Source: an uncultured Mycoplasmatota bacterium
Lineage (GTDB): Bacteria > Bacillota_I > Bacilli_A > RF39 > UBA660
Direction: 5' to 3'
Length of the DNA stretch: 43,903 nucleotides
NCBI GenBank assembly: GCA_947643405.1
Contig: CANRVY010000013.1
Location: forward strand, 1-43,903
Below the pieces are notes generated by a model that did no database searches, was not told the DNA's origin, and saw nothing but the letters and a program-made list of their open reading frames with translations. A program made the position numbers and the translations under genes. Positions 21,671 to 25,785 of this stretch are shown here, piece by piece; position 1 is the stretch's first letter; each line of letters begins with the position of its first letter.

Positions 21671-21979
21671 TTATAATTTAATCTGAATATCAACACCACT
21701 TGGAATATCTAAATGAGTTAATGCCTCAATAGTCTCCTTACTTGGATTATTGATATCAATAAGTCTTTTGTGTGTTCTTTTCTCAAATTGCTCACGTGAA
21801 TCTTTATATTTGTGAACAGCTCTTAAGATAGTGATTTTTTCTACTTCTGTTGGAAGTGGAATTGGACCACTTACTTCTCCACCAGTTCTTTTTACAGTCT
21901 CAACGATTTTTGCGCAAGCTGTATCTAAACTTTTGTGTTCAAATGCTTTCAATTTGATGCGAACTTTTGTCTTAGACAT
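21671..21979 (-). CDS. rpsJ: 30S ribosomal protein S10 (uS10)
   Basis: Head protein, also NusE in antitermination complexes. [33 protein letters not shown] and the closing [16 protein letters not shown] identify it. The 102 aa are standard. It is the first gene of the ribosomal operon, with GAGAGGAGGATATAA before its ATG and a structured leader of about 130 bases. Confidence 0.99.
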
Positions 21980-22184: not shown

Positions 22185-22217
22185 GTAAAGAAAAAGAAAA
22201 GTTCAATTATACTTTTC
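22185..22217 (-). terminator. Intrinsic terminator of the CPCC membrane protein gene
   Basis: GAAAAGT (22196-22202) pairs with ACTTTTC (22211-22217), loop 8, followed on the minus strand by a T-rich run. The stem touches the stop codon (22218-22220). Confidence 0.7.
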
Positions 22218-24611
22218 CTATTTCGGATTAATTCGTTGCCAAATTGTTTTCGATACTTTAGCAATTTCTTTTTTACTGTCTTCCAATTTATTTTCTTCAA
22301 ATCGTTTTTGAAAAACTTGCTCTATATGTTCTTTTAATTCTTTTTCTGTTTTTAGCTTACTGAGTTTTGTAGTTATCTGTTTGATTTCTGTCTGATATTC
22401 TTCGGCTGGAGTATCATTTTTAATTATATTTAATGGATCCCAATTATAAATTTCTTCTTCTATAATTTTATTTTTTTCGGCTTTTAATAGTTTTTTTGAG
22501 TTTTTCTTTTTGCTTAGCGCTAAAAGAGTTTCTACAATTTGGTCTACCATTTTCTTTGTTTCTATATCTGGTGAAAACTCATTACAAGATTCCCAAATAT
22601 TATTTTTTGCATTGTCTAAGGTTTCTGCTTTTTCTATAATAAATAGTTTATTTTGATAATATATTCTAAAATATTTTTTTTGATATTCATAAAATGGAAT
22701 AACCGATTTTTCTCTTATAAATCCTTTTTCTTGTAATTGTAATTTTAATAGTTTTAAAATTCTGTCACTATTAACTTTTACTTTTTCCCTTTCAAAAGGC
22801 ATTCGAGTAAAAGTTTTGTAATCTTCCATAATTGCTCCATAGACTTTATAATTTTCTTTTGCCACTTTCAGTCTTACTTTATTAACTCCTGCCATGTCTG
22901 GATTACTGTTTTGTAAACTGTTATTTCTCCAATAACATACTGGGCAAGGTTCTTTATAGTAATCATTTAAATATCCTTCTGTCGTATTATATCCACAGCA
23001 AGCACATTTGTATTTTCGAACTTCATAATTCCTATTATATCCAAAGCAGTCTCTAAATAATTTTCTTCCAATATAATTATGAAAATTTAAAGTTCTAGCT
23101 CTATAAAAACGATTCCAGTAATTAATCATTTTTGAGTATCCTTTGCACAATAGTTCTTTATTATTTTCTGCAAATTCTTTTATTGTTGTATTATTTTGTC
23201 CTTTTAGCTTGTTATAAATAAGTGCTAGAATTTCATATACATATTCTTCACTTATTTTTAGGAAAAATGGATATTCCCAATCTTGTAGTTCCATATCTAA
23301 AATTTTTCTTACATATTTTTCTCTTATATGTCCATCAAAATGTCTTGTGTAAACACAATAGAGCATTAATTTTTCGGTTTGTGTTAAATCTGCGTCTTCT
23401 ACTTCTTCTAATTTGATTCGATATGGAATATCTACTATTTCTTGATTTAATCGATAAGTGGTCTTTTTATCACTGACCCGAATATTTTCTATATGAAGTT
23501 TTTTAGCTAGACTAAGCCAATCTTCCTCCAAAGATTTTGGAAATAAAAAGGCCAAATTAAAAAAGATTGGATTTATTTTTTTAGCTTTTTCTTCTTTTTT
23601 TTCTTCTAAAACGACTTCCTTTTCCTCTATTTTTTTTGATTCTTCTACTTTATTAGTTTTTTCCATTTTTTCAGGTGCTTCTATTTTTTTGGGTTCCTCT
23701 ACTTTCTCAGGCTCTTCTGTTTTCTTAGGTTCTTCTATTATTGCTAATTTCTGTTTATCTGATTGATCAATTTTATATTCTGATATAAACCAACATAAAA
23801 CAACAAGAGATATAATTGCAAGACCAATTGCAAGAACCATCTCATTTCCAATTCTTCCGCTTGCACATAACAACATATAAGCCGTTAAATCTATGGCGAT
23901 TAAAGCTATTGTTAATAAAAAGAAAGATATTAAAAATGTCATTTTAGTTTTTCTTTTCTGTACTACTTTTTTAGGCGTTGATAAACTAGATAATGCATAA
24001 GAAATCATCATGACACCAGCAAGTCCAAATCCAATTCGTTTTAGCGTTTCATTAGCCACTATCTTATATTCTATTAATACAAAAGCAAAAGCTATATATA
24101 ATAAAGATAATAGAAAGAATAATGCAATTGTAATTGAGGCTTTATGGCTTTTCTTTTTTTCTGGCATTTTTTTTATATCTTTTACTAATTTTATTTCATT
24201 TAAAAAGGCTTTTTCAATCACTTTTTTCGCATTTTTAAATTTATTTTTTTCAATACAACAAAGCATTAGTGTAATCTTATTTTCTATGTTGTAAGTAAAA
24301 CCATATTCGTTATTTGTTGTCATAGAAAGAATTTGATTTGATGGAGTTATTCCACATAGCCCTAACATTAATTCTTCATTTTCTACAAATAAAGTTGTGG
24401 AGTGTTCTTCTTTGGTTTGATATTCAAAAATTGGTTTATCAAATCCACAGGTTATATTTTTATCTTTTATATCCACTTCAATTACATATAAACGAATAAG
24501 AGATGAAGTTTTATTGGAGGAATAATTTTTTATGGTATAGCTAAATTCAATTGGTTCTCCGTTTTGTTTTACTTCAAAGTTTCCAAATGGTGTAGAAATC
24601 ACATTTTTCAT
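22218..24611 (-). CDS. Large membrane protein with charged linker and CPCC cysteine-rich domain
   Basis: Full-length function unknown. Order of parts: a soluble N-terminal region (1-150) that looks beta-rich; four membrane helices (about 158-180, 192-212, 225-249, 257-277); a low-complexity Glu/Lys/Pro linker (about 293-345) of repeated EEPKK/PEKVE units; a conserved cytoplasmic-looking domain (about 347-530) with IPYRIKLEEVEDADLTQTEK; a Cys_rich_CPCC-type motif (536-593: Cys536, Cys538, Cys539, then CPVCYW at 556-561 and the ANKV-like GVNKVRL); and a C-terminal helical part. The cysteines probably bind zinc. It has its own terminator and candidate promoter. CPCC proteins are often of unknown role; this 797-aa architecture is not one I recognise. 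Confidence 0.75.
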   Translation of the reverse strand: MKNVISTPFGNFEVKQNGEPIEFSYTIKNYSSNKTSSLIRLYVIEVDIKDKNITCGFDKPIFEYQTKEEHSTTLFVENEELMLGLCGITPSNQILSMTTNNEYGFTYNIENKITLMLCCIEKNKFKNAKKVIEKAFLNEIKLVKDIKKMPEKKKSHKASITIALFFLLSLLYIAFAFVLIEYKIVANETLKRIGFGLAGVMMISYALSSLSTPKKVVQKRKTKMTFLISFFLLTIALIAIDLTAYMLLCASGRIGNEMVLAIGLAIISLVVLCWFISEYKIDQSDKQKLAIIEEPKKTEEPEKVEEPKKIEAPEKMEKTNKVEESKKIEEKEVVLEEKKEEKAKKINPIFFNLAFLFPKSLEEDWLSLAKKLHIENIRVSDKKTTYRLNQEIVDIPYRIKLEEVEDADLTQTEKLMLYCVYTRHFDGHIREKYVRKILDMELQDWEYPFFLKISEEYVYEILALIYNKLKGQNNTTIKEFAENNKELLCKGYSKMINYWNRFYRARTLNFHNYIGRKLFRDCFGYNRNYEVRKYKCACCGYNTTEGYLNDYYKEPCPVCYWRNNSLQNSNPDMAGVNKVRLKVAKENYKVYGAIMEDYKTFTRMPFEREKVKVNSDRILKLLKLQLQEKGFIREKSVIPFYEYQKKYFRIYYQNKLFIIEKAETLDNAKNNIWESCNEFSPDIETKKMVDQIVETLLALSKKKNSKKLLKAEKNKIIEEEIYNWDPLNIIKNDTPAEEYQTEIKQITTKLSKLKTEKELKEHIEQVFQKRFEENKLEDSKKEIAKVSKTIWQRINPK

Positions 24612-24702
24612 ACAACTACTTCCTTTCCACAGCTTAAATAATTGTTTACTATTCTACCACATTGTTGATTTCTTTTCCATAGTAAATTTTATCCTTTTTA
24701 GT

Positions 24703-24810: not shown

Positions 24811-25785
24811 ATGAAAGTTGCTATATTAGGTCCTGGAGCATATGGAATTGCTCTAGCAAGCGTTTTGGAAAATAACAAAAATGAAGTTACTATGTGGTCA
24901 AAGTTTTCCACAGAAATAGAAGAATTAGATAAAACAAGAACTAGTCCAAAGTTACCAGACTACATAATCCCTGTGGATATTTCTTTTACTAGTGATATGA
25001 AAGAAGCAGTTTCTGGCAAAGAACTAATTGTAATTGCTGTTCCTGCTGCTTTTGTAGACGATGTCGCAAAAGAACTCAATCCGCTTTTACAGGAAAATCA
25101 ACATCTATGTATTGCTAGTAAGGGAATTGAAAACGATACTTGCTTATTTGTAGATGACGTTATTAGAAAATATATTAATACTAAAAATTTAGCTGTCATT
25201 TCTGGGCCATCATTTGCTGTTGATATTGTAAAAAAAATACCAATTGGATTATCATTAGGAACAAACAATGAAGTAACAGCTTCTATTGTTATGAAAGCAT
25301 TTAAAAACGATTATTTTAAATTAAGAATTACAGATGACATCAAAGGGATAGAAATTTGTGGTTCCATTAAAAACGTCATTGCTATTGCAGCTGGTATGTT
25401 AGAAGGAATGCAATTGCCAGAGTCAACAAAAGCAATGTTTATTACTGAATCATTGCATGACATCAAAGAATTAATCTTTAAACTAGGAGGAGATAAAAAA
25501 ACCATTTTATCATTTGCTGGTTTTGGGGATTTACTTCTTACTTGTACAAGTCCTAAGTCAAGAAATTTCTCATTTGGATATCTTATCGGAAAGAAAATAC
25601 CAAAAGATGAAATTGAAGATTATAAATGTGCAACTACTATTGAAGGACTATATACATTAAAATCAATTTATCAACTTACCAAAGATCAACATGTAGATAT
25701 GCCAATTATTGACTTAATTTATAACATTGTTGAAAACGGAAAAAATCCAGAAGAATTAAAACGATTTTTGATTGAGAAAGACTAA
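24811..25785 (+). CDS. gpsA: Glycerol-3-phosphate dehydrogenase [NAD(P)+]
   Basis: Reduces dihydroxyacetone phosphate to sn-glycerol 3-phosphate, the backbone of membrane phospholipids. The nucleotide-binding loop is ILGPGAYGIALA (4-15). SGPSFAVDI and GSIKNVIAIAAGMLEG include the catalytic lysine region, and GFGDLLLTC is the substrate-side motif. The 324 aa are normal. A strong AAAGGAGGAATT site precedes the ATG. It is one of only two plus-strand genes and stands alone between a promoter and a terminator. Confidence 0.97.
   Translation: MKVAILGPGAYGIALASVLENNKNEVTMWSKFSTEIEELDKTRTSPKLPDYIIPVDISFTSDMKEAVSGKELIVIAVPAAFVDDVAKELNPLLQENQHLCIASKGIENDTCLFVDDVIRKYINTKNLAVISGPSFAVDIVKKIPIGLSLGTNNEVTASIVMKAFKNDYFKLRITDDIKGIEICGSIKNVIAIAAGMLEGMQLPESTKAMFITESLHDIKELIFKLGGDKKTILSFAGFGDLLLTCTSPKSRNFSFGYLIGKKIPKDEIEDYKCATTIEGLYTLKSIYQLTKDQHVDMPIIDLIYNIVENGKNPEELKRFLIEKD

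Follow-up and report, generated by a model that had tools for sequence, protein, structure and literature searches.

The 43,903-nucleotide stretch analysed here (the window), from an uncultured Mycoplasmatota bacterium, encodes a 797-aa protein (22218..24611, minus strand, ATG start) that we read, with slightly better than even confidence, as a membrane-tethered polyimmunity protein. Because its inner part combines a zinc-ribbon-type antidote domain with other small domains, at least one of them likewise antidote-like, the protein probably acts as a shield, tethered to the membrane, against several toxins that rival bacteria produce. We regard as firm the gene itself, the CPCC and tail domains that it encodes and the link of CPCC proteins to a toxin family; what the whole protein does we infer. 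Immunity proteins are usually small, single and encoded next to their toxin. Polyimmunity proteins, as set out in the accessible portion of Zhang et al. 2012 (PMC3482391), join several immunity domains in one chain and usually have no toxin gene in their operon.

Gene, locus and predicted membrane topology

The open reading frame is confirmed as real, more than a chance frame. It is flanked by rpsJ (21671-21979, minus strand), the first gene of a ribosomal operon, and by the divergent gpsA (24811-25785, plus strand), and rplC is also read nearby. These coordinates agree with the earlier note, which had placed the gene between the ribosomal operon and gpsA. No toxin gene is present among the adjoining frames, which are read as rpsJ, rplC and gpsA.

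A Shine-Dalgarno-like GGAAAGGAA (24620..24628, minus strand), read from the sequence, lies about 8 nt 5' of the ATG, and a consensus scan picked up a well-placed promoter-like site with a TG ahead of its second hexamer (24651..24679, minus strand). Such sites occur at chance frequency (17 found versus 19.1 expected from shuffles), so the promoter that the earlier note had assigned to the gene does not stand out. The 797-aa gene may be its own unit because the scan also places a promoter-like site ahead of rpsJ (22142-22114). The proposed terminator has weak support. The consensus scan found none after the frame, as the G-C pairs of the hairpin there are too few, and folding yields a weak candidate directly 3' of the stop codon, an AT-rich hairpin with a T-rich stretch (22194..22219, minus strand; -8.5 kcal/mol, z -2.0, equalled by 7 of 200 shuffles). 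When the folded stretch is shortened so that it cuts into this hairpin, no signal is seen (z -0.2).

The domains of the protein, all encoded on the minus strand, begin with an N-domain (residues 1-145; 24177..24611) that is modelled as beta-rich with a C-terminal helix and predicted to be cytosolic. Four membrane helices follow (residues ~155-279; 23775..24149), based on strong hydrophobic segments between ~155 and 283 and on the predicted structure, which places them at 157-181, 187-210, 223-250 and 257-278. Transporter and other membrane families were considered for this region and rejected, as they gave only sub-threshold Pfam matches there. The helices lead into a Glu/Lys-rich linker (residues 288-345; 23577..23750). 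Of its 58 residues, 19 are Glu and 17 are Lys, and its length and sequence vary among orthologues. Basic residues outnumber acidic ones (K+R versus D+E) by 9 to 4 in residues 130-155, before helix 1, and by 5 to 0 in residues 211-222, between helices 2 and 3, and after helix 4 the two are in balance (5 versus 6). Because basic residues precede helix 1 and join helices 2 and 3, both ends of the protein are predicted to be cytosolic, and the C-terminal part would thus lie on the cytosolic side.

The whole-protein model is of moderate quality (mean pLDDT 66.4, pTM 0.34, with the CPCC part mostly under 50), and Foldseek returned no PDB match to it at E 0.001 or better. The earlier note had described an unfamiliar order of N-domain, four helices, linker, helical domain, CPCC and helical tail. 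That order is correct. Searches of Pfam, NCBIfam, PDB sequences, PADLOC and PHROGs gave no characterised family that matches the protein over its full length. Within the C-terminal part, the helical domain, CPCC domain and tail were correctly recognised, and the DUF1871 identity and the division into several separate domains had been missed. A role in anti-phage defence was considered and rejected: the window protein has no PADLOC match, and one orthologue matches CARF_2M at a chance-level E of 0.03.

The N-domain profile matches this genus only (5 of 147 genomes, own included). The domain has no sequence-family match, nor any sequence match to the DcrB/PsbP/DUF1795-like fold. In fold, its model resembles DcrB (6e8a, Z 8.4), PA94 (1tu1, 7.4) and SciW (6xrr, 6.7), values that lie in the chance range by the fold tool's own note and that glycosidase sandwich domains match at the top (Z 8.4 and below). 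The SciW entry also contains the Rhs1 membrane domain. On account of this resemblance, the N-domain might be a relative of DUF1795-type chaperones such as SciW, which hold the membrane part of Rhs toxins, and might catch the entry segment of a toxin at the membrane while the row of antidotes blocks the toxin domain that follows, an idea that we regard as improbable. If it were true, the protein would represent a new class of membrane-stationed toxin trap for incoming Rhs or contact-delivered toxins, and membrane-stationed CPCC immunity would have been invented a second time, independently, in a fusion protein of genome G062 described below.

CPCC domains and the toxin family beside them

The CPCC domain (Cys_rich_CPCC, PF14206; residues 534-609; 22785..23012) scores 57.2 bits in the window protein against a cut-off of 24.5 (E 1.4e-15), and 58.2-66.2 bits in the three intact orthologues. 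Its five cysteines are kept, being invariant in all six aligned sequences, and the first cysteine motif of the window protein reads CACC, not CPCC. PHROGs matches the CPCC part to a family of unknown function (E 0.0013).

A PF14206 search of the phylum found matches in 24 of 392 genomes, at 40 places. Thirty of these are loci, two of which (L059 and L060) repeat others (L047 and L041), leaving 28 distinct loci. Of the ten remaining places, nine fall within those loci, most of them being the second of two motifs in a tandem protein; the tenth (in G404, near 1667402) was left out of the counts. With a toxin profile built from 7 sequences and about 1.5 kb of flank covered on each side of CPCC, a toxin of one family was found to adjoin CPCC in 14 of the 28 distinct loci (the 7 profile seeds, L051, which is identical to a seed, and 6 others). 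The toxin lies just upstream of CPCC in 13 of them and overlaps its downstream end in L039. In other loci, the profile matched 0 of 3116 reading frames. No such toxin occurs within ~1.5 kb on either side in the remaining 14 CPCC loci, which include two fusions (the window gene and L036) as well as L054 and L055, rubrerythrin-type by reading.

At 1.7e-12, the toxin profile matches chain A of PDB 8ey4, which is named as a PT-VENN domain-containing protein. A CPCC protein forms chain I of that structure, and another entry, 8ey3, contains one as well. Judging from its two chains, 8ey4 appears to be a toxin-immunity complex. We take the toxin family beside CPCC to be a nuclease of the BECR kind. 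The earlier note had mentioned that some CPCC domains lie near toxin-immunity loci, and both the gene pairing and chains A and I of 8ey4 bear this out. Literature searches on CPCC with immunity and on 8EY4 returned no match, PF14206 appeared in the literature searched on a halovirus subject only, and 8EY4 is not mentioned in the accessible portion of PMC9086364.

The genome that carries the window gene also encodes a small CPCC protein, and its gene is paired with a toxin from the family of 8ey4 chain A. The toxin is the tip of a gene that reads as Rhs-type, with Pfam RHS_repeat matching at no better than E 0.3, and that overlaps the CPCC gene by 4 bp. No viral contig matches this small CPCC protein. 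In locus L012 of the same genome (contig C9, 12562-15864), two tandem Rhs-type C-terminal regions have cores that are almost the same but tips that differ, and the first tip shares 4 bp with an 87-aa CPCC gene; the arrangement looks like a toxin-swapping locus. Locus L048 (G351, 120-1680) encodes a phage protein of the MuF type that bears the same toxin tip; a CPCC gene directly follows, and the two read as a phage-type toxin-immunity pair. Tandem CPCC-type matches within one protein of ~160-255 aa beside the toxin occur in L041, L043, L045, L047, L050, L051, L052, L057 and L058, and these proteins are possible double-headed immunity proteins. Among plasmids, 70 records match CPCC. Five were examined for neighbours, with an RHS protein directly upstream in one, a DUF6531 protein three genes before in one, an endonuclease gene two genes before in one and neither in two.

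The CPCC domain of the window protein is related to chain I of 8ey4 (PF14206) through the domain itself and its kept cysteines, but sits in a 797-aa membrane protein and has Asn in place of a nearly universal Asp. Among sequences caught by a C-x-C-C pattern, with tandem-motif proteins not counted, W-x-x-D occurs in 15 of 16 other CPCC sequences and W-x-x-N in all four orthologues; the motif is a feature of this comparison, not one set by Pfam. The sole other exception is L006, the second membrane fusion. The orthologues also have GGAN shortened to GVN or GIN. Binding of the domain to the known toxin family may have been lost or changed; its target may be a different toxin variant, or it may have taken on another role. 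No toxin frame of the 8ey4 chain A family was found in the loci of the window gene, L026 and L001.

The second membrane fusion (L006, the same place as L036; 1186-2286 in G062) encodes 366 aa with two membrane helices, a CPCC domain (88.8 bits) and a DUF4275 domain (46.7 bits). Like the window protein, it carries CPCC behind a membrane anchor, followed by a small domain, and has no W-x-x-D Asp. It differs in its two helices and other partner domains, and comes from a genome of another family of the same class. Since it is a second such fusion, tethering of CPCC seems to have arisen more than once.

Helical domain, fourth domain and tail

The helical domain between linker and CPCC (residues 346-531; 23019..23576) belongs to an unnamed family that also exists as stand-alone proteins of ~185-240 aa. 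Pfam identifies no family (0) in the domain or its stand-alone relatives, and NCBIfam gives no convincing match. The conserved domain had been spotted in the earlier note, but not the stand-alone family, which has immunity neighbours in two lineages. Six of the 10 loci from the genome search are stand-alone proteins and the other four are congeners. Eight plasmid records, from Bacteroides, Phocaeicola, Burkholderia, Streptomyces and Streptantibioticus, also encode the domain, which is present in Bacillota, Bacteroidota, Pseudomonadota and Actinomycetota. A profile search of 392 genomes of the phylum gave four matches, one of them the window; the others (L062-L064) were read and dropped as chance. 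A phage origin was likewise rejected, as, with the search settings applied, no phage record (E up to 0.01) or viral contig encodes the domain.

Neighbours of the stand-alone domain were examined in 11 loci (6 genomic and 5 of the 8 plasmids). In both Exiguobacterium loci the helical-domain gene begins 4 bp after an Imm64 gene (E ~2e-22). On a Bacteroides finegoldii plasmid it is preceded by an integrase and a MobV gene and followed by DUF2750 and SMI1/KNR4 (SUKH) genes. Named immunity genes thus directly adjoin the domain in 3 of the 11 loci, from two lineages. No named immunity neighbour was seen in the other eight (L018-L020, L024 and L029-L032), where neighbours were partly Pfam-scanned (L019, L020, L024), read (L018) or taken from annotation (L030, L032), and where L029 and L031 have no neighbour genes. 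No toxin was recognised beside the stand-alone domain in the 11 loci. In the accessible portion of PMC3482391, DUF2750 equals Imm16, Imm64 and SUKH proteins are treated as immunity proteins, and several polyimmunity loci lie by recombinases. Because immunity genes neighbour it in two lineages, the helical domain likely has an immunity role, and its family, for which the copies of Pfam and NCBIfam searched contain no model, is probably a new one among immunity proteins. In L024 (4836-5825), two small genes without Pfam matches, one with cysteine motifs, follow the stand-alone helical-domain gene and are possibly further immunity genes.

The fourth domain (residues 610-703; 22503..22784) is modelled as a small, fast-evolving alpha/beta domain with an alpha-beta4-alpha-beta-alpha fold (mean pLDDT 79). 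Its profile matches this genus only (4 of 147 genomes, own included). Assignment to T4_MRH was rejected as a sub-threshold Pfam match in one of four members (18.8 bits versus a cut-off of 24.4). Foldseek and VIA-align comparisons with the PDB gave nothing above the chance range (best E 0.31; best Z 7.0). A match among viral structures, A0A8S5QFZ7 (E 2.1e-4), is an uncharacterised protein. To us, the order of helices and strands recalls Imm59.

The C-terminal tail (residues 704-797; 22221..22502) is helical and DUF1871-like (PF08958). As a separate stretch it scores 23.3 bits against a cut-off of 22, with 22.6 bits in the genome search and 18.9 bits when the whole protein is scanned. PF08958 matches all four orthologous tails at E values up to 5, and the orthologues are neither listed in the whole-protein scan nor over threshold in the genome search. 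The tail model aligns with 1u84 (title APC36109) over 80 residues of a target of 81 (Z 9.4, rmsd 2.5), a Z value that, according to the note of the fold tool, does not by itself prove a match between helical folds; the top match, at a tied score, is 3r2x chain C, a designed protein of the same size. We take 1u84 to be the solved member of DUF1871. The tail is thus similar to that family both in sequence, just over cut-off, and in fold, but forms the C-terminal part of a fusion, unlike stand-alone members. To our knowledge, no function has been assigned to the latter, and we know of no immunity role for DUF1871. No immunity context was found for it, because a search of the phylum matched 3 of 295 genomes (the window, a stop-broken frame and one unconvincing on reading) and a plasmid search for the tail matched none. 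In the literature searched, DUF1871 appears on other subjects.

Spread of the gene and competing readings

At E 0.001 or better, the whole protein matches 8 of 98 genomes. These are the own genome, four congeners and three genomes outside the genus (G062, G072 and G024), whose matches are partial. The complete architecture is present in three congeners (G001, G002 and G005). Matches in G004 are pieces of the N-terminal part and the helical domain, and the fifth congener, G003, has no match at this threshold. The gene is hence whole or partial in 4 of 5 congeners, with one full-length copy at a fixed place in the genus, and in the three intact cases it still lies between rpsJ and gpsA. A full-length match was not found in the 92 genomes outside the genus.

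The intact orthologues are 56-66% identical to the window protein and the G004 protein 33%. In the genomes of the intact orthologues, gpsA is 85-87% and rplC 95-98% identical (rplC over 230-255 residues), and the 797-aa protein diverges far faster than either. Its dN/dS ratios of 0.19-0.27 across six pairs, rough values because synonymous sites are near saturation, indicate purifying selection. Change is fastest in the linker and the fourth domain, and the N-domain is the most conserved part in four of the six pairs. In G004 (L021 / L005), the frame is cut after the helical domain by a transposase-like gene, the start of which we take to be IS200-type, and contains stops in the N-terminal part; here the gene seems to be on its way out.

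For a polyimmunity protein speak the CPCC score over cut-off and the toxin pairing of CPCC genes, the DUF1871 match of the tail, the Imm64, DUF2750 and SUKH neighbours, fast divergence under purifying selection, a toxin-free operon and the positive-inside charges. Against it stand the W-x-x-N in CPCC, immunity neighbours of the helical domain in only 3 of 11 loci, the 14 of 28 CPCC loci where no such toxin occurs, a DUF1871 tail and a fourth domain that are not known to act in immunity, two domains that could not be assigned, and the one fixed single-copy place in the genus, with the gene cut in G004 and unmatched in G003. The count of immunity domains draws on a solved entry and gene order for CPCC and on gene neighbours only for the helical domain, whose immunity role would follow from those genes. 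The DUF1871 tail and the fourth domain may share such a role, judged by their company only.

In the proposed mechanism, the four helices would anchor the protein in the cell membrane, and the flexible, charged linker would carry the row of small domains on the cytosolic side. At least two of these, the helical domain and CPCC, would be descended from immunity proteins, which block incoming polymorphic toxins of other bacteria by binding them. The simplest mode of action would be stoichiometric binding of toxin domains that reach the cytosol. As a presumed benefit, tethering would put antidotes where contact-delivered toxins emerge into the cytosol.

Alternatively, immunity-derived domains could have been captured and reused, making the protein a sensor or adaptor at the membrane that responds, for example, to zinc, envelope stress or incoming toxins and has itself ceased to neutralise a toxin, a scenario to which we give about one chance in four. 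It accommodates the Asp-to-Asn change in all four orthologues at a site also without Asp in L006, the fixed place in the genus and the conservation of the N-domain. However, no signalling or catalytic domain was found in family and PADLOC scans, and the fourth domain diverges fast, as expected of an interface in conflict. We consider it rather unlikely that this is a housekeeping membrane protein of the lineage, with CPCC as a structural zinc ribbon close to immunity by chance. One full-length copy adjoining ribosomal genes and gpsA, kept whole or in part in most congeners, would fit such a role, but the restriction of full-length matches to the genus, conservation far below that of the neighbour genes, the insertion that cuts the gene in one congener and the small stand-alone relatives of three domains do not. 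A chimeric assembly or misread frame is conceivable in a draft genome of 57 contigs, but the same architecture and neighbours in three other assemblies and a dN/dS of ~0.2 make it exceedingly improbable.

The best reading is that the window protein is a membrane-tethered variant of the polyimmunity proteins described in 2012 (PMC3482391, accessible portion). It would share with them several unrelated small domains of immunity type in one chain, and like them it has no toxin gene alongside. It differs by its four-helix anchor and N-domain and, as opposed to the variable polyimmunity loci of that portion, by its single copy at a place that is fixed within the genus. CPCC, DUF1871 and DUF4275 are not found as terms in the accessible portion of PMC3482391. 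Literature searches on membrane-anchored, tethered or multi-domain immunity returned the polyimmunity term, or 'membrane-anchored immunity' in other systems only.

This work links CPCC proteins to a toxin family and presents the helical domain as a probable new immunity family. In a genus with small genomes, an antidote-type chain is kept in most of those sampled. If our reading of the window protein as a tethered polyimmunity protein is true, bacteria can maintain a polyvalent defence that stands ready where toxins enter.
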